Shown here: piece by piece, positions 9,960-64,000 of the stretch
Position numbering within the stretch: position 1 is the stretch's first letter
Layout: each line of letters begins with the position of its first letter
NCBI GenBank assembly: GCA_030295235.1
Contig: AP026143.1
Span: 794,320-858,319, forward strand
Direction: 5' to 3'
Origin: Fistulifera solaris
Lineage: Eukaryota; Bacillariophyta; Bacillariophyceae; Naviculales; Stauroneidaceae
DNA length: 64,000 nucleotides
Position numbers and translations under genes: made by a program
The notes under the pieces: model-generated
Seen by the model: only the letters and a program-made list of their open reading frames with translations
What the model was told of the DNA's origin: nothing
Database searches by the model: none

Positions 9960-11226
9960 GTTTGCAGGATAGGAAGGTGAAGGTAAAGAAGAGGGAGTGT
10001 CTATGATTATGAGGTGAAAAATTTGCTTGAGGCTGGTCAGTTTTGATTATTCAGGATGACTGGGCAAAGAGTAGACTACAAGGTATCGATGAGAGAAGAG
10101 AGAAGCGCGACATGCGTTTTTCTTCTTCCTTCGTTTCTTCGTCAACGAAACGCCGAAGCGGAAGAGATAGAACGAGAAACAAGATCAAATTCAAATAGCT
10201 CTCACACCTCACACCTCACACGTCATTCATTTTGGTTTCCTCAGAATTCCGAAAGGCCCTCCTCGAAACCCGGATTAGGAAAATACGAACAAAGCTACAT
10301 AGTGGCTTATTCCTGAGGACATATTTGGCGGAAATAATGCCTTTTATGCTTCGCGGGCTACTAATGCAGTGGGAAAGCAAAGGTATTTTGTACGCACAAT
10401 TAGAACTAAAAAATCAGAACTCGGGGCGAGAGAACAAAGAAGCTAAAGTTCGTCGTCGGAGTTCGGAGTTTCGTTGACTCCTGTATCATAAGTTGTGTAT
10501 TATGTTTCGTCTTGTTGAATTCGAGAAGACGGAAATGAGGAAGCCAAAAAGTCTATAGCCCCAATACAGAAAACGGAATGTGCAACTAGAGAGGCCTGAC
10601 TCCAGACGACTCGAAGACTCGAAGTCAACTTTCCCTTTCACCATCGCAAGCCTAAAGAAGGGGAAATTTCACGAGAGAACGGATTATGAACTATGACTAT
10701 AGATTTTAGATGAGCGGCAATTGATTGAAAGCGTTGCCCGTTTCTCTGCAAGCGCCTTTGTCTTTCGGAAGTCGGGATCTGAGTCCACGCTACCTGCTTG
10801 ATGTCTGATCCCAAACGAAGGCTGCCTACAACTTAGCATATACTTTGTTTCCTCATATTTTGCTGAAGTCAGCGTATTTTCACATATCAAAGACTTGGTC
10901 GCTATTAGTTGTTATTCGAGCAAACAAGGCGATTAGTAGCTGGCGACTTGTTTGGGCGCCTCCACGACGCAAGAATGATTATACAGACTTGGTGATTCAT
11001 TTACCCCATCGCGACCCCCCTTCCAAACATTTTGACTTACTTGCAAAAGAAAACTGGTCCATATAGGTGCAGGTTTTTGAAGCGACCACACGCTGTATCA
11101 ACCCCATGCTATAAAGAACGCGCATAAGTGTCCTGCGTTAAGAGGAAATAGTTGCCATCGCTAGTGCGAGTCGTAATTCACGCGTTGTCCATTTCCAGGC
11201 AGTACAAATCTCCATATTAATACCAT
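9960..11226. other. Intergenic, nothing clearly supported
   Basis: Several frames of 66-86 codons occur on both strands with no motif, TM segment or consistent composition. There is a small GACTCGAA duplication near 10607-10622. I see no gene. Confidence 0.4.
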
Positions 11227-12516
11227 TTAATCTTGATTGCGGACTGGTCGTGGAACCGTTATGGTATATTGCGACGGATCTTTTGAAAGATTCATTTTCA
11301 TGATGGAAAAAGTGCCAATATCATCACGATTTCGACCTGAACTCGCATCCTCGATCCATACATTGCCCCCACAAAATATAAAGTCTTCCGCGTCAATTTT
11401 GTTGCGCGACTTCAAGTCCTCCAATGCAGGAATACTAAATGTGTTGGACGTTAACGACATCGCCTGTCCTTTCATTGATATGCGTTCCAGCGCCCCTTCC
11501 ATCACCAAGATGCGCTCCTTCTTGGGCGGGATCTGTAGCCGAATGAGCAACCGCGCCGTCGTGGCGGTTTCTCCGGACAATACCCATGTCCCACCAGCGG
11601 CTTTCTGTTGCGTTTCTGGATCTAGAATAGGGCCTCCTGCTGTCGTTCCATCAATGCGCAAAATCAAATTTTCTGACTGCTCCTTGGAATTCTCCATTAA
11701 TTCAAATCCAGTCGGAGAACGTACCATACGCCAAAATCCCACCAAATGTTCACGACTAGGATACGGAGGAAGTACTGGCGTTGGTGTAGATGTTGCTTGA
11801 GGCTTGTCAGCGATTAAGGTCCCGTTCTTATACTGAGCAAATATTGGATTGTCTTCAATAGCGGGTTTGTCTTTCTTGGTAGAAAGTTGTTGCAAACTAC
11901 GTTCACGAGCTCGGGAAGCGATGACGTTTTGAATTTTTTCCCGCATCCATCCGTCCAATGCGGCCGGGTCTGGAGGAGACTCTGGCTTGTTCGGCTCGAG
12001 TATGGAGTCAAGTTCCACACTTTCTTGGTCGGCGATGTTCGACAATGCGTCGTAAGACTTATCTTCAGATTCGCTCTGCCCGTGTAGTTGCTGCAAACGC
12101 TGCCTTGTTTTTGATAATATCATGTCGTCCTCCTCGGTGGTCTGCGATCCTGAAAAGGCATTGCGCGGTTCTTCTTGGTTTTCTAGTTGATTCGAATTCT
12201 TCAGCGACTTTTCAGCTTTTTGGATTCGTCCTTCTTGATATTTTTGGAATTCTTGTTCGCGTCGTAGTAGCGTTTGATTCGTTCCAACGGGCAAAGGCCA
12301 CGTTGCACTAGGCCAAGGAGCAAACGCTGTGTTGTCTTTAGACAAGGCATACAACCCGATTTCGGGCAATCGCAGGGCATCTAGTCCTAATGCATCATCC
12401 ATGTATTGCATCCAGAACAAAGGCGATATCCCATTCCCACCTTGATCAGATGTGAGTGTATATCGTTGATTGTCGTCATCGTCTGCAGTAATGTTGTTTG
12501 CGTTTTGTAGTATCAT
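11227..12516 (-). CDS. Conserved protein with C-terminal GxW beta-rich domain
   Basis: This is a 429-aa frame. The N-terminal quarter is Trp/Pro-rich. A charged, disordered linker follows (about residues 95-225). The C-terminal ~170 residues start LVGFWRMVRSPTGFELME and contain GGTWVLSGETATTARLLIRL and FSIMKMNLSK, an alternating beta-strand pattern with GxW turns that suggests a lipocalin-like or fibrillin-like barrel. I do not recognise a named family. Reading upstream of the ATG, the frame stays open through LQLPDDWE, and a pyrimidine-rich CTTCCTGCAG directly precedes that point on the minus strand. The true start may therefore lie in the adjacent frame (12524-13195), making one fused protein. 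Confidence 0.6.
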   Translation of the reverse strand: MILQNANNITADDDDNQRYTLTSDQGGNGISPLFWMQYMDDALGLDALRLPEIGLYALSKDNTAFAPWPSATWPLPVGTNQTLLRREQEFQKYQEGRIQKAEKSLKNSNQLENQEEPRNAFSGSQTTEEDDMILSKTRQRLQQLHGQSESEDKSYDALSNIADQESVELDSILEPNKPESPPDPAALDGWMREKIQNVIASRARERSLQQLSTKKDKPAIEDNPIFAQYKNGTLIADKPQATSTPTPVLPPYPSREHLVGFWRMVRSPTGFELMENSKEQSENLILRIDGTTAGGPILDPETQQKAAGGTWVLSGETATTARLLIRLQIPPKKERILVMEGALERISMKGQAMSLTSNTFSIPALEDLKSRNKIDAEDFIFCGGNVWIEDASSGRNRDDIGTFSIMKMNLSKDPSQYTITVPRPVRNQD

Positions 12517-12523
12517 TTCCCAA

Positions 12524-13195
12524 TCATCGGGTAGCTGCAGGAAGGGGGAGGCGCAACTCTGTCTCGTGCTCCTGTTCCAGAGCCCAGGATAATGTCCATG
12601 ACGGCGATTGCTGAAGCACTGTTTGATTCAAACTTTGCACAAAAGAGTTTACGAAGGGACTGACACCGTTCGAAGTCGCAAACAATACACTATTGTCGAC
12701 GCTATTTCCCTCCAATCCCTTCCACGACACCATCCACGGTTCTTGTTGTAATGCTGGTTGTTGTAATACAGTCTCGATACATTTCTGCACTTGCTGCAAA
12801 GCCTGATTCGCGTCTTTTTCCTCTTTCATTTCGAGTTGCAATAAAGGCAGGCGCAACGCCGCCGCCGGGATGCACGCATGCACCAAAAGCGGACAATGAT
12901 AGAGAATAGCGCGTTGAATGCTTTCCAATTCGAGTGCTAATTCGTGACATGTCTCCATCGGAACAGCAATCAAGAATTTTTGTGTTGATTGTTGACGGTT
13001 CATTCTGATGTTCGGTTTCCTGTCGTCGTTCGTTTCGTCGTCTTTGTTGTTTTCATTCAGAAAATTGCGAATGAATTGAGACATTTGTGACGATTCTTCG
13101 GGTCGTTGGGATAAGGCTAAAGATGATTCTATCGGCAAATGATGTCGTTTTAATTGTTGATGAGGAAGAACCGTCCATCCTCGAACGACATTCAC
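12524..13195 (-). CDS. 2H-phosphoesterase-like (AKAP7-like) N-terminal frame
   Basis: This is a 223-aa frame. After ~68 charged residues, the segment KFLIAVPMETCHELALELES is followed by about 25 residues, then ACIPAAALRLPLLQLEM. Later comes a segment GLEGNSVDNSVLFATSNGVS. That layout resembles the central fold of AKAP7/ASCC1 2H phosphoesterases, which use two HxT/S motifs. Neither His motif is visible here (ALRLP stands where HITLL is expected), so if the assignment is right the protein is probably inactive. The stop is 7 nt upstream of the ATG of the next minus-strand frame (11227-12516), which suggests a frame break or an unrecognised splice joining them. The family call is tentative. Confidence 0.5.
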   Translation of the reverse strand: MNVVRGWTVLPHQQLKRHHLPIESSLALSQRPEESSQMSQFIRNFLNENNKDDETNDDRKPNIRMNRQQSTQKFLIAVPMETCHELALELESIQRAILYHCPLLVHACIPAAALRLPLLQLEMKEEKDANQALQQVQKCIETVLQQPALQQEPWMVSWKGLEGNSVDNSVLFATSNGVSPFVNSFVQSLNQTVLQQSPSWTLSWALEQEHETELRLPLPAATR

Positions 13196-14089
13196 CGCAA
13201 AAAAAAAGGAAAAGCACTTTCGTATTTGTGAGGAAATTGAAAGACCACATGATTGTTATGCGATAAACGAAGACTTTTTTGACAAGGAAAGAGGATTGAA
13301 TACGAAAAAATGGCTCAAGATGCTCATCACTCATCATTCATCATTCATCTAAACTATTAGTATGGTCTAGTATAATAAGCGGCTGCGCACTTCGTATTTT
13401 CACGTCCACAAAAATCTGCGCATGTGTTATTCAAATCATCCACAGAAAATCTGTGGGAGTGGTATTATGACGCATCCAGAAAATCTGGGAGAGAAAATCT
13501 GGTCGTGTGCAGTTGTGGACTCAAAAACCATCACTTTGACAACGTTTCGTAATTCGTAAGGCTCTTTGACAAAAAAACAGAGTGACGTGTAATACAAACG
13601 CTGCTAAAGCCTATTTTATTGCAACAGCAACCAGTGGAGCTCAAGTCATTTTTTTGCAAGTGGAGTTTTGACGTGCACAGAGAATCTGGGAGTATGGTTT
13701 TTCCAATTTGACAGAAAATATGATAATGTGGTGGCTCATTGCACAAGATGCAGATGACCAGAAACCGTGCTGGCAAGTCCCACCAAACGGAGTAATAACT
13801 TTGTAATTTTGTAAGGATCAGTTGATGTTATCGTCGTCTTGCAGACGAAAAGAAAGTATTGATCGACATTTTTCTGTTGGTTATTTTGGGAAATTGCATT
13901 GCAATCGTACCAGTCCCTACAGGGTATGAGATCCCACTTGGGTTGGGTGATCCGATTTCGGTAAAAGTAGTACAAGAAAAGAAGATCCTGCTATTCTTAT
14001 CTTTATAAACGAAATCCGATCCAGCGATGAAGAAGCCCTCCAAGTGGAACTCGACATGCCGTGCACACGAGGGGAAGACGTGGCACGAG
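13196..14089. other. Intergenic with CAGAAAATCTGGG-type repeats
   Basis: There is no supported gene. A cluster of imperfect CAGAAAATCTGGG words (about 13440-13700) is annotated separately. The last part lies downstream of the selenoprotein candidate on the minus strand and may be its 3' UTR. Confidence 0.4.
13438..13700. repeat. Cluster of CAGAAAATCTGGG short repeats
   Basis: Imperfect copies occur near 13443 (ACAGAAAATCTGTGGGAG), 13477, 13494 and 13677 (ACAGAGAATCTGGGAG). Several are themselves near-palindromic (CAGAAAATCTG). Related words in reverse orientation (CACATTTTCTGGGA) recur as a tandem array at about 19475-19575. Confidence 0.5.
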
Positions 14090-14156
14090 ACATCTTGACA
14101 ATTGGTTATTTTCAGCAACAATTTGTTAACGTTTGCTGCGTCATTCATAGAGATGA
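14090..14156 (-). promoter_or_regulatory. Candidate SECIS element in 3' UTR
   Basis: On the minus strand, about 60-70 nt after the TAA of the Trx-like gene, an ATGA (14144-14141) is followed by a C-U mismatch and a 7-bp helix (14139-14133 with 14121-14115, one G-U pair). An 11-nt apical loop contains AA at 14127-14126, and GA follows at 14113-14112. This matches the eukaryotic SECIS plan: 5' TGA and 3' GA non-Watson-Crick quartet, unpaired AA about 12-13 nt from the quartet. Helix II is short and the basal helix is weak (CATCT near 14155-14151 against AGATG further down). The folding was done by hand and is not decisive. Confidence 0.4.
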
Positions 14157-14212
14157 TTCAAACTGAGGTTCGGAATTCGTTCATTCCTGTACGTAATTTG
14201 GACTACTTGTTG

Positions 14213-14917
14213 TTAGAGCTCATCACTCGCAGTAAGCTCGGTCTTTACTGCAGCAAGCATTTTGGAAAGGATGCGACGGCGACGCATATTCCATTCTTGT
14301 AATGCCTCCTGCAATCGCTCGACATCCATACCCGAAATACGCTGATACTCCTGCTCGATTTCCTCTAAAGTTTTAGGACTCATGCGCTCCAAGTAGTCAA
14401 TTTCATGCTGATTGCAATTGGTTTTATCCAATCCACACAAGACCGTCTTTCCATACTCTTCAATGTAATCGACCATGGCCTCAAAGGTACCGAGTTCATC
14501 GCAGATGGATTTTGTTGTTTTCTTGACATACGAACCACCGTCGACACCCGTTTCACTCGTAAAGTAACGAATGGTTGGCCAGCCGCCACTGCCCGGATTG
14601 TGAGGAGGTCCTCTGACATCGGAGCCAGCTTCGGCTAAATTGATGTCGCCGAAAACGACATCGTTGTTCCCCTGAAACGCCCGCACGGCACGATTCCATG
14701 CGGGCGCTTGCTTTCGTCATCAGCCTCATCCAGAACTGGCAATCCAGCGAACGAACGCGGTTTTGCCGTTAGAGGAAGCCGCAGTGACAAAACTGTCGAG
14801 CGCTTCGCGATCTTGGATTTCCGTCACTAGCGAAAAGTGCCCTTCGGGGTAAATGGCTTGCACAACAGTCATCGAGCAGAGCCAAATGACCGCGAGGCCG
14901 TTGCTAAAAGTCTTCAT
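14213..14917 (-). CDS. ER thioredoxin-like protein with Sec-Gly-Sec-Sec active site (candidate selenoprotein)
   Basis: The frame runs from an ATG at 14917 to a TAA at 14213, about 235 aa, with three in-frame TGA codons (14728-14726, 14722-14720, 14719-14717) and no other stop. The signal peptide is MKTFSNGLAVIWLCSMTVVQA. A thioredoxin-like beta strand, TAFVRWIASSG, leads into U-G-U-U-R-K-Q-APAWN, exactly where thioredoxins have WCxxCK followed by AP. FGDINLAEAGSDVRG, GGWPTIRYF (Trx cis-Pro region) and a helical C-terminus follow, ending in SDEL, an ER-retention signal. The regions on both sides of the TGA cluster are in the same frame and both fit the fold, so reading the TGAs as selenocysteine is the simplest explanation. 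Diatoms have selenoproteins. A possible SECIS lies downstream. Partner and substrate are unknown; ER redox chemistry is inferred. Another upstream ATG (14959) would weaken the signal peptide. Confidence 0.7.
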
Positions 14918-15192
14918 CGCTCTGTTTCCGCGTCTTCTCTCGCTTCTTTTCAGCTGCAAAAGAGAATTTCACAGATAGAGAACAAGTAGTCTAAATCAAG
15001 TCGCTAATAGACTCCGAGGAAATGATAAACTCGACTCTTCGCTCTTTATGGTCACGAAGTCGGCAAGCAGCTGCTCAAAAAAAGTATTGCGACTTGCGAT
15101 GACTGTGACCGTTGGTGTTGGTGTTGGCGAAAGGCGAAAGTAGATCGGTGCGTACGCAGACAGACTGTACCTCTGCGACGGTGAGTGCAAAG

Positions 15193-16629
15193 CTAGATAC
15201 CATCGGCTTCAAACGTAATGATTCGTCCACAATCGTCCATAAGTTGATTCATGCGCAAAGATGGCTGATCGGTAACGTCAATGAAGCTTCCAATGATTCG
15301 CGCCGGTACTCCCACTGCCACTGAATGTGCGGGAAGATTGGCAATCACTAAAGTTCCAGCTCCAATTTGACATCCATCTCCTTTAGCGCGACAAAAAGTT
15401 AGTCCGTATAAACTTTAGACACATGAGAATCTGATGGCTCTTACCGATACGAACGGGACCGAGCAGGGTGGCACCTGCTCCCAACAAAACACCATTTCCG
15501 ACTTTAGGATGCCGATCGACGCCTTTCTTTCCCGATCCGCCCAACGTGACATGATGCAAAATACTGCAATTGTGACCGATAGATGCCTATAAGCAAAAAG
15601 TGCGATAGAATTAGACTCATGGAGTGACGTCGAAATAAGACTCTTTTCGTCTTACCGTAGAGCCAATGACAACACCGGTCCCATGATCGAGTAGTATACC
15701 GCTCCCCAATGTAGCCGCCGGATGAATATCAATTTGAAACGTTTGTGAACTTTGTGATTGCAAAAGAGCGCTTGAGTATGTTTCCCCAGACTCCACAAAT
15801 AATGCGCGACGCGGTGAGTCTGAAGAGCGTGAAAGCCCTTAAAGTACAAAAAAGCGTCGGGCAAGTAGCTGCAGGCAGGATCACGATCTCGTACAGCCAT
15901 AATATCTGCTCGCAACGATCGTCGAAATACTGGACTGTGTTGCAGAGCATCCAAAACGAGCGATTGCAACTGTGTTGAAATCATCATAGCGGGGCTTTGT
16001 AACCGATTGGCTAGCAAGAAAGCCAGCGAACTTTCCAGCGATGGATGATTTAGAATCGTGCTGTGCAGAAACGATACCAGTAATGGTTCTCGACTGGCTT
16101 GCTCATAAGCTTCATGGCGAAGGAGATCCCACACGAGATCAATTTTGCCATCTTGACTATAAACGCTCTCGGGGATGCTGAGATCAATGTCAGGATAAAG
16201 AGGAATCATCGTTGCATTTACGTCTTTAGACGACAACGTCGATGACGATGCATGTGTATTGTCTGGATTCGTTGCAGCAAAATGTTGTTCGTCCCACAAT
16301 GCTGATCGCAAAGTCTGTGATGTTTCATCGTGAGCTACCACATGATGCGTTGTTACGAGAGAAACGTTGGTAGATGTTGCTGCAGCTGTTTCTTCCGAAG
16401 ATAAAGAGGCAATGCTGATATATGATATATTATTGTCGACAAGAGTTGGCTTTTCGACAGGGAGAGGAGCCATCCAATGCTTTGCCGCATCCGTGTTGTC
16501 GTCGTCTTCTCCTCCGAGTTTGTAGCGAACACCGAAAAGAGATAATGATATTCTTGCGAACGACGAATGCAGAGGAAGCCACGCCGCCGTCAGTGCAGGA
16601 AAGAGGAACAGTAAGTGCGATAATTTCAT
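15193..16629 (-). CDS. SAT: Serine O-acetyltransferase, plastid-targeted (one frame break)
   Basis: Three exons: 16629-15656, 15586-15445 and 15380-15193, with GTAAGA donors and TATAG/TAAAG acceptors. The product is about 434 aa and acetylates serine with acetyl-CoA to give O-acetylserine for cysteine synthesis. The N-terminal SATase domain includes DPAC-x8-LYFKGFHALQTHR. The left-handed beta-helix includes DIHPAATLGSGILLDHGTG (His of LDHGTG corresponds to the catalytic His of CysE), SILHHVTLGGSGKKG, DRHPKVGNGVLLGAGA and GVPARIIG. A signal peptide (MKLSHLLFLFPALTAA) is followed by W, a diatom plastid-type cleavage site. Frame analysis shows one base missing near 15762-15775 (CTCTTTTGCAA): the protein reads ...SLGKHTQAL then LLQSQSSQTFQ. 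Both sides are fully conserved, so an assembly error at the T run is likely. Confidence 0.88.
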
Positions 16630-16754
16630 GATGTGATAGTCTAGACTATTTTGATAAAAGATTTGAAAATCAAAGATTGATCATTGATTACGGATTACGG
16701 AGCAATTAATGATTTTGATGAGATTGGTTTTTTGAAGCGTATCGAGAATCATTG

Positions 16755-17060
16755 CGTCTACACAAATTCTACGTTGCCGCCGTAGGAAATTTATCTCTGC
16801 AGGGGTACCCGGACATTGCATTTCTCGCACTCGTCCAATTCATGGCTTTCCAGTGCACAGATGTCAACGTTTGCTTGTCCACCGTATTTATTTCGTATCA
16901 GGAAGCAATGAACGCCATCGATTTGAAAACAAAAAGTTGGTGGAACGAATGATGCAACGCTTCGAATGTCTACGTGATTTCACGTGGCTCTCGTAGGGAA
17001 ATTTATCGACAGAGGGGAGACCCGGAGCTTGTGTATTTGGATCCCACCCTTTTTCGGGTT
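16755..17060 (+). repeat. Dispersed CGTAGG-AAATTTATC repeat, dimer
   Basis: Two half-units about 218 bp apart. The left has CCGCCGTAGGAAATTTATC then TCTGCAGGGGTACCCGGA. The right has ACGTGATTTCACGT (a perfect hairpin), CTCGTAGGGAAATTTATC, then GACAGAGGGGAGACCCGGA. The region at 44390-44660 has the same two half-units in the same order and at nearly the same spacing, and 9010-9095 has a single right-type unit. No coding potential was seen. Confidence 0.7.
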
Positions 17061-18214
17061 TGTTCGACACCAAGTGCAATTTGTCACTAATAGAGCAGTG
17101 AATCTTTTCATTCGCTCGCCTTGTTTCTATTTTACTTATTGCAGTCAGATAATATAATGATCTTCGTCCGCAGGGAAGCCTCATACCGACGGGTAGTGCA
17201 CGGGCCCTGCGGAGTAGCTTCCTACCACAATGGGAGCAAGAGAAATCGCGTGTGCCTTGAGCCTCCGTCCTTCTCTTGCTCTGGAGAGAAGCCGAGTGAT
17301 GTGCTGAGCCCTGAGGCCTTCACCGCTCCTCGCCTCAAATTCTCTGTTTCAAGGAATGAGTGTATGTGCTGTGCCTTGGGGCCTTCACCGCTCCTCGCCT
17401 TGATTCTCTTTTTCAAAGCGCCATGGCAAAGACCATGGACAAAGTGCGGCCTGAGGGTAACTTCAGTGTTGGTACCAGCGTATGCGTGGCAGGTTGCGTA
17501 GTAAGAGGAGAGAAGCTTACTCGACACCCAAAGATGGTGTCTTGCGGGAGGAAAAACCTCCCAGCAGAATAAATCCACGGTGACGACCTGGTATGCAATC
17601 ACTCCGCAAAGTTGCCATGGAAATTCCACGACAGAGGAGGATGGCACCAACGGCGACGGCCTCAAAAGAGGACCGATACGACCGATTGCGATGACCATAC
17701 CTATCCCGGTGGCATCCCCCAGATTGGCGACCCCGCCAAAGGAGGGCCGGCTGAAAACCAGCAGGAAGAGGTTAGCTCCATATTAAGGCAGCATGGTAGA
17801 AATTCCACCCGAAGGATGATCCCGGCGACAAAGTCGACTGAGAAGGCATACCTTGAGGTGGCGGCCCCGTGTTAGGGCCAAGTCCCAACATCGAGAAGGC
17901 TCGCTCTACCCGACCCCAAAGGGGGGTTGTTTGATTGCATAAGCATACGCGTCCCCCGTCCGACAAAGGGCGGCGCCCAAAAAGAGGTGAAAAATGGACC
18001 ACAAAAGTGTAAGCTCTCTTCCACACAGCCCCAGCATAAGACTGAGACTGCGCCAGCAAAAAGCTGGCCTATATTTATCAATGTGACGCAAAAGTAAAAG
18101 TGCAATGAAGAAATTAATAACTAGAAACAAACATTTCAGAAGAAGAAAATTTATATAATCTAGGTTTATTCGCAGCAGCAGCAGCAGCAGCGGCGGCAGC
18201 GGCAGCGGCAGTAG
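17061..18214. other. GC-rich non-coding island ending in a CAG/CGG microsatellite
   Basis: The base composition is clearly richer in G+C than the flanks. Features include a tandem duplication containing GGCCTTCACCGCTCCTCGCCT (start near 17317 and 17381), a hairpin GGGAGG-AAAAA-CCTCCC (about 17546-17562), and near-duplicate words GAAATTCCAC at about 17623 and 17799. It ends in a (CAG)n/(CGG)n microsatellite at about 18175-18212. Overlapping frames on both strands (up to 158 codons) have no recognisable domain. A non-autonomous element or solo LTR is possible, but I found no terminal repeats. Confidence 0.4.
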
Positions 18215-20066
18215 TTGAATGATTTCTTATTTACTCTAGTCTTGTCCTTTCGTTTTTCATTGTTTGAGAATAATTCCGCCTGTCAAACGGCTTGGGTACG
18301 ATCAACGTGCGAGAAAGGAAATTTTATATTAGTCGTATGCACATTTGAATGGCTTCGTCCAACTAGTGTCTACGCAACGTTTTGCTGGCAGATTTTGCTG
18401 CATTAATCTCGTAAAGTACTCCCTGATCGGAATAGCGAACAGATAAACACCGTACCAGGTACAAAAATAGTCTGAATGAACTATCTGTGCGTTTCGTCTC
18501 AAGAATAGCCGCCTCCCACAGAAAATTAAAGGACATGTGTTCTTAACACGTCATAGACGAATGTATGAGCGTTCAGCAATTTCGAGCTGGACATGCACTT
18601 GCAGAAAGATCTTTACAAATGCAAAAGACTTGCGAAAGGGCTGCGATCATTCACACTTTCGTTTTCTTCGCCCCTGGAACGTCTGCACTTTACTATCCAT
18701 GCATTTATTCGTGGACTTCTTCAGCAAGCGCACTGATTTTTGTGAAATGGTGGTGGGGGTTTCACGGCTAGCCATTCGAATCGCTCACCACTCGCACTGT
18801 TGGGAACTTACAACTCCATTGTTCTGCTTACAGAAAAAGAAGACTTAGTCTTCCATATCCGCTCCTTCTGAAATGCTAACGTCGCTAAACAGACTTTGCA
18901 ACTGAATTTTTCGTAGATCGATCATTTCCGTGACTCATTTTTGTGACTTTTGATGAACAATCAGATGCTATTGGACTCCAGACGGTGATGGTGAGCCATC
19001 CTTACCGCGATACTTTTTTAAGAACCCAGAATCCGCAAACAGTTCTCAAACATTACAGGCGTTTCCTCCGAAATCGACTCAACTACTCTTTTTTCTTCAT
19101 TTATTTATCCACCTCCACGTCGTCGTGTGTGAGCGACACGGCTCTCTTTTCCCATAACCGATCATTCGTTCGTACGGTTGTATCCTCTTAAACCAGCAGC
19201 AATGTTTTGTTTGCTGCTAGATGGAGATTGCTTGCTTGTTTACAACGCTCGCATCATTGCTTTTATCACGCTGCGCTGAATGAGACGCCCTACCCGCAAA
19301 CGCCAGCAGCGCATCGTGCTTTCGTGTTCCTTGTCGTTAACACAGTGGTAGAAATCGCAAATTGGTGATATATTGACACCCGCGTTTAATTGTTTGCATT
19401 ATTTGCAAAGAAACTATCGGCGATTTCTTGAGTGCTTGCTATGGGTGTTGTCGAAAATACCAGGTAAAACCATTCACACACATTTTCTGGGAACGTGAAA
19501 GGACACTCCCCCACATTTTCTGGGAATGTTAAAAGATGACTCGCCCACATTTTCTGGGTACGTGAAAAGAACACTCTCGCACTTTTTAAAATAAAAAATA
19601 AAATACTTTAAACAAAAGAACGATGGTAACAGGTAACAGGAAGTAGGCCGTGTTGTCTCTCTCTAGGTCCGTTCAATTTTGCGGAGCGCAGGCGGAGCGT
19701 AGGGAGCGTAGGGAGCGTACCTGGTAGTCGAGCACCGAGCACCATAGCTTACGGGAAAGGTTAGACCAGAAAGCTCTTGTAGATTGAGAGTGGCGTAATG
19801 TGTACATAAATAGCGATGATCCAGTACATCGTTTTGCTCAGTGCCCCATAACTTCATAAGCAGTTCATACGCGGATCGACGAGGACGAAAAAAGGCGCCA
19901 TGGGCAACCGCGAGCGATTGCAAAGCTGCAAGCACCGCAACGGCAAAGATTCAATAGGAGTATAGCTCGTTCTACCTTGAACTACTCCGCACCTTTGTTG
20001 TTATCATCATTCTTTATATTGTGTTTCGCAACACATAGAGAAAAAAGGCTCTTGATTTTATTTATC
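18215..20066. other. Intergenic upstream of the BEACH gene
   Basis: No supported gene. A 90-aa minus-strand frame (19663-19935) begins with a hydrophobic, signal-like stretch and then RPRRSAYELLMKLWG, but it ends in GC-rich AGCGTAGGG repeats and has no family match that I recognise. A short tandem array at 19475-19575 is listed separately. The last 100 bp presumably hold the BEACH gene promoter. Confidence 0.35.
19472..19578 (+). repeat. Short tandem array with CACATTTTCTGGG
   Basis: Three imperfect units of about 36-43 bp, each CACATTTTCTGGG followed by AACGTGAAA-like sequence and ACACTC. The core is the reverse complement of the CCCAGAAAATGTG-like words clustered at 13438-13700, so the two loci share a short repeat family. 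Confidence 0.55.
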
Positions 20067-63661: not shown

Positions 63662-64000
63662 TAGGTTTAGGTTTAGGGTTAGGGTTAGGGTTAGGGTTAG
63701 GGTTAGGGTTAGGGTTAGGGTTAGGGTTAGGGTTAGGGTTAGGGTTAGGGTTAGGGTTAGGGTTAGGGTTAGGGTTAGGGTTAGGGTTAGGGTTAGGGTT
63801 AGGGTTAGGGTTAGGGTTGAGGGTTAGGGTTAGGGTTAGGGTTAGGGTTAGGGTTGGGGTTAGGGTTAGGGTTAGGGTTAGGGTTAGGGTTAGGGTTAGG
63901 GTTAGGGTTAGGGTTAGGGTTAGGGTTGAGGGTTAGGGTTAGGGTTAGGGTTAGGGTTGGGGTTAGGAGTTAGGAGTTAGGAGTTAGGGTTAGGGTTAGG
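63662..64000 (+). repeat. Telomeric TTAGGG array
   Basis: About 340 bp of TTAGGG repeats running to the window edge, preceded by TTTAGG variants. Variant units appear towards the outer end: TTGAGGG (63817, 63926), TTGGGG (63854, 63957) and three TTAGGAG units (about 63963-63983). The G-rich strand runs 5'->3' to the right edge, so the chromosome end lies to the right. Confidence 0.97.

Follow-up and report, generated by a model that had tools for sequence, protein, structure and literature searches.

PDI_e is a family of algal selenoproteins named in 2020 by Jiang et al. for its GUGUU motif (PMC7539508). As described there, its 12 genes come from 10 algae, chiefly haptophytes and members of the SAR group; EST alignments and predicted SECIS elements are reported for several species, adjacent selenocysteine (Sec) residues are stated to have been found first in this family, and the homologues in Fistulifera solaris are described as having lost the motif (PMC7539508). 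Decoding of more than one UGA per message is also a feature of two-Sec selenoproteins (i.e. SELENOW with its UxxU motif, and MSP) and of the multi-Sec SELENOP (PMC7539508, PMC2375036). A search for further literature on the GUGUU motif or on adjacent Sec residues gave, judged by title, nothing relevant beyond PMC7539508. Two UGA codons side by side make heavy demands on Sec decoding, since the ribosome must accept tRNA-Sec twice running.

We analysed a stretch of 64,000 nucleotides from F. solaris (hereafter the window). Its minus strand contains, at positions 14917–14213, an open frame that runs from ATG to TAA, encodes 234 residues and ends in SDEL. Translation of this frame yields exactly three internal TGA codons, at residues 64 (14726–14728), 66 (14720–14722) and 67 (14717–14719, adjoining that of residue 66), and zero internal TAA or TAG codons, so that the frame, its three TGAs and its C-terminus are all as an earlier note on this DNA had claimed. 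With TGA read as Sec (U), the motif is S-G-U-G-U-U-R-K-Q-A-P-A-W-N. The hydrophobic N-terminus (14852–14917, minus strand), judged by eye, is a probable signal peptide, and SDEL is an ending that we take to be of the ER type. The product is therefore probably ER-resident, as also proposed in that note, a reading supported by these two sequence ends judged by eye. A further stretch (14414–14437, minus strand) contains Cys161 and Cys168, which are Cys in all six aligned proteins and could possibly form a structural or second redox pair.

The window protein with C substituted for U (P0001) was used as the search query. In a phmmer search of the PDB it matches the thioredoxin domains of TXNDC5 (E 4e-4) and PDI (E 2e-3), while the Pfam Thioredoxin model (E 0.0023, 18.4 bits) stays under its cut-off of 23.5 and the NCBIfam model pdi_dom (E 3e-5) is likewise under its own. 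A profile built from six proteins of the F. solaris genome matches PDI far more strongly than P0001 alone, probably because the six include two canonical PDIs with WCGHC. No relatives of the window protein were found in the virus and prokaryote collections (phages, viral_contigs and genome_contigs).

In the alignment, Sec64, Gly65, Sec66 and Sec67 lie opposite Cys, Gly, His and Cys of the PDI CGHC motif, respectively. The four aligned proteins without Sec all have Cys at position 67, His (two) or Asp (two) at position 66 and Cys (two) or His (two) at position 64; Sec66 thus has no Cys counterpart. The window protein is similar to the thioredoxin domains of PDI and TXNDC5 in its domain, in the position of its active site and in its C-terminus, presumably of the same ER type. 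It differs from them in that (i) UGUU replaces CGHC, i.e. the classical CxxC of PDI is absent; (ii) one extra residue stands ahead of the motif; and (iii) a single thioredoxin domain is followed by a C-terminal part.

The resemblance to PDI_e comprises the GUGUU motif (here SGUGUUR), three neighbouring Sec residues and a thioredoxin-like domain around the motif; it is drawn from the motif and from the published description of the family (PMC7539508). In contrast to that description (PMC7539508), the F. solaris genome holds both a GUGUU-type gene pair and an HADC pair, and one member of the former reads RUGUU. The window protein also differs from SELENOW, whose UxxU Sec residues are non-adjacent, in having Sec66 and Sec67 side by side (PMC7539508). 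Judged from its sequence, the locus is a real gene of the PDI_e kind with three selenocysteine codons, at which we infer Sec insertion.

We searched a genome of 51.7 Mb in 61 contigs, in which the window copy lies on contig C30. Matches come in contig pairs (i.e. C30/C31, C25/C26, C9/C10, C19/C20 and C3/C4); F. solaris is described as an allopolyploid with 42 chromosome pairs (PMC5935921). On C31, the partner gene has lost none of the three TGAs and shares 93% protein identity with the window copy over 192 residues. Around the kept TGAs, silent and replacement changes have accumulated: Gly is replaced by Arg just before them, giving RUGUU, and GGC is changed to GGG between the first two. The earlier note had named two compensating indels around 14717–14728 as a possible source of the pattern; the C31 copy does not bear this out, because its spacing is identical there, with the one silent change and the one replacement just before.

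The frame of the C31 copy is, however, broken by the net deletion of one base roughly 21 codons upstream of the motif. Past the TGAs, the two copies differ over 167 codons with dN 0.041 and dS 0.146 (ratio 0.28; Fisher p 3.9e-4 on rounded counts of 15/392 vs 15/109), and this sequence is under purifying selection. The 21 codons before the TGAs, counted from the deletion onward, are more tightly constrained (dN 0.022, dS 0.646, ratio 0.034), and so is the HADC pair (0.03). Judged by eye, a GPx gene (L020), a SelM gene (L036) and a SelU gene (L045) have frameshifts that are absent from their partner copies. Given these three other conserved genes, assembly consensus errors are a fair explanation for the C31 deletion, with loss of the C31 copy as a possible alternative. 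One-sided frameshifts were seen by eye at L002 as well as at L020, L036 and L045, a pattern suggestive of indel errors in the consensus or of genes lost from one subgenome.

A paralogue pair on C25 and C26 has about 48–50% identity to the window protein, reads HADC at the motif and lacks TGA. These paralogues align gap-free across the motif of the window protein, and dN/dS between them is 0.03. The placement of the TGAs on the active site, the retention of all three in C31 and the gap-free alignment of C25 and C26 together put the three-TGA pattern beyond chance.

The genome contains components of the Sec machinery. Six of the 14 tRNA-Sec matches are above the Rfam cut-off, and SepSecS is found on C9 and C10. 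The same models also match control genomes (tRNA-Sec in 14 of 14, five above the cut-off; SepSecS in three of 14, Bacillus subtilis among them), so these matches alone are unspecific. Four of the tRNA-Sec loci form tandem pairs, L010/L011 on C27 and L012/L014 on C29, 205 and 210 bases apart. For eEFSec, the SelB model gave 55 matches, of which we examined six. None of the six is eEFSec: they are EF-Tu (L062), IF-2 (L064), EF-1-alpha (L065), GTP-binding protein 1 (L066), eIF2-gamma (L067) and an EF-1-alpha-like protein (L068).

Other selenoprotein genes are present in the same genome: two of the seven GPx matches and three of the four SelM matches carry one internal TGA, SelU on C19 and C20 has its GUxxC motif in frame, and SelT on C13 and C14 reads CTSUG with the TGA in frame. 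An MsrA locus (L050) was set aside as a control selenoprotein because its in-frame TGA resembles, by eye, a GTGAGT splice donor. The window gene thus has what characterizes a eukaryotic selenoprotein gene, namely TGA within the reading frame and a genome equipped with Sec machinery. Taken together, the PDI comparison, the C31 copy and this machinery back the claim of the earlier note that the protein is thioredoxin-like with three Sec codons in one redox motif.

A candidate SECIS lies 67 nt past the stop codon (14111–14145, minus strand) and consists of AATGA, 1 nt, a 7-bp helix, a loop and TGA; its counterpart in C31 begins 63 nt past the stop. Helix II is short (7 bp) and the apical loops of the two copies are unlike, while the distance from the quartet to the apical AA in SECIS elements is given as 10–13 nt (PMC2375036). 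The C30 and C31 hairpins resemble those behind the GPx, SelM, SelU and SelT genes. A scan with approximately the published spacing (NTGA, 8–14 nt, AA or CC, then GA) finds the PDI_e hairpin shortly past the stop in both C30 and C31 and one SelM hairpin in both copies; at GPx it finds other candidates only, none of them common to both copies by place and score.

We also used a simple rule (AATGA, at most 2 nt, at least 6 bp, TGA) that was devised after viewing the PDI_e, SelM and GPx hairpins. The rule matches both PDI_e copies, both GPx copies with TGA and both members of one SelM pair, the latter with two hairpins each (L035 and L036). Among genes whose hairpins had not been seen beforehand, it matches both SelU copies, again with two hairpins each (L045 and L046), and one of the two SelT copies, the other having CGA for TGA. 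No match was found at the SelM pair L034/L037 or, on its own strand, at the SelU-type L040. Across the surveyed loci (303,364 bases, both strands) the rule gives 22 matches. Selenoprotein flanks account for 18, a count in which eight matches represent four SelU hairpins in overlapping loci and the C31 PDI_e match is entered twice; the other four are at L017, L018, L031 and L040. Ten MsrA loci give four matches, in two loci. Over the window (128 kb on both strands) there are five matches at 6 bp and two at 7 bp, one of the latter being the candidate SECIS. When the 300-nt 3′ flank was shuffled 5000 times, a 6-bp match arose in 17 of the shuffled sequences and a 7-bp match in five.

Behind the HADC paralogues no SECIS-like hairpin was found, either with the AATGA rule (within 500 nt and across the whole loci), with a looser rule over 1000 nt or with the published spacing over 900 nt. 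The 7-bp hairpin is present in the minimum-energy folds of both 3′ flanks, and these folds are no more stable than those of shuffled sequences (z −0.22 and 0.33). Rfam scans for SECIS gave none in the window at 11000–18500 and none in a set of 12 loci (GPx, SelM and SelT among them, SelU L045/L046 left out), where the sole match was RAGATH-19 in L034. Because Rfam is silent at the GPx, SelM and SelT loci too, its silence is a weak test either way. A covariance model was set aside because a MAFFT alignment of the hairpins failed to follow their structure.

Our results make it very probable that the gene product is a thioredoxin/PDI-like selenoprotein of the secretory pathway, that it belongs to the PDI_e kind known from algae and that all three UGAs stand for Sec. 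The three UGAs would be decoded by the tRNA-Sec of the cell as directed by a SECIS in the 3′ UTR, a role that the candidate hairpin may fill, and the product would have a Sec-Gly-Sec-Sec active site. Sec64 and Sec67 would most likely form the catalytic pair in place of the two cysteines of PDI, making selenylsulfides with substrates and, once oxidized, a diselenide with each other. Sec66, in the place of the PDI histidine and beside Sec67, would offer an extra selenol that may help to resolve intermediates or serve as a reserve. A more specific reading is put forward tentatively, as possible rather than probable: that a single SECIS, unusual in its shortness (helix II of 7 bp) and with a variable apical loop, serves in the decoding of all three UGAs and is of a type that recurs in the messages of GPx, SelM, SelU and SelT and escapes Rfam at the loci scanned; and that F. 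solaris, a species described as having lost the GUGUU protein, retains it alongside an HADC paralogue from which both Sec and hairpin have disappeared.

Three other explanations were weighed against Sec decoding. If the gene were decayed, the TGAs would be true stops in a pseudogene derived from a CGHC-type PDI, and the deletion upstream of the motif in C31 would fit this, as would the constraint past the TGAs, which falls short of that ahead of them and of that in the HADC pair. Such decay is nevertheless very unlikely in a gene with 234 codons free of TAA, TAG or an additional TGA, with three TGAs that coincide with the active site and are retained by its C31 copy, and with purifying selection past them; moreover, in view of the one-sided frameshifts in three other genes, consensus errors are a fair explanation of the C31 frameshift. 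The motif could also be excised, its TGAs never translated, by an intron of 30 nt, a length divisible by three: C30 does contain GTTCTGG...GCAAG, 30 nt with GT and AG ends, and by eye C31 has an equal length with the same ends. Excision would, however, delete the Cys position common to the four aligned relatives without Sec, and the HADC paralogue codes through the region without a gap. We know of no introns as short as 30 nt in diatoms, and we give this explanation hardly any weight.

Just as improbable is a reading of the TGAs other than as Sec, be it through insertion of a different amino acid or through simple readthrough. It would agree with the candidate status of the SECIS, with the negative Rfam scans and with the finding that eEFSec is not among the six of 55 SelB-model matches examined. 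Against it, tRNA-Sec and SepSecS are present, GPx, SelM, SelU and SelT have TGAs at their Sec sites, and position 67 is Cys in all four aligned relatives without Sec.

Read as Sec codons, the TGAs of the GUGUU pair imply that the published statement of loss in F. solaris needs correcting (PMC7539508). A likely source of that statement is ordinary annotation, which would terminate a gene of this type at its first TGA. What is new here is the presence in F. solaris of two copies with three TGAs and of an HADC paralogue pair without the hairpin, together with a candidate short SECIS, recognized from sequence, that other selenoprotein genes appear to share. The gene, the copy that keeps its TGAs and the HADC paralogue offer a natural setting for asking whether one SECIS drives consecutive Sec insertions and what Sec-Gly-Sec-Sec can do beyond CGHC.

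Directly upstream of the gene, on the minus strand and in the same direction, lies a serine acetyltransferase gene (15193 to about 16830), recognized by its SATase_N domain and, by eye, by its C-terminal motifs. Parts of it are also found beside the C31 copy. That a gene for cysteine synthesis adjoins one for a selenoprotein may be due to chance. The far end of the window (63700–64000) consists mostly of TTAGGG repeats, a telomere-like array at the contig end.
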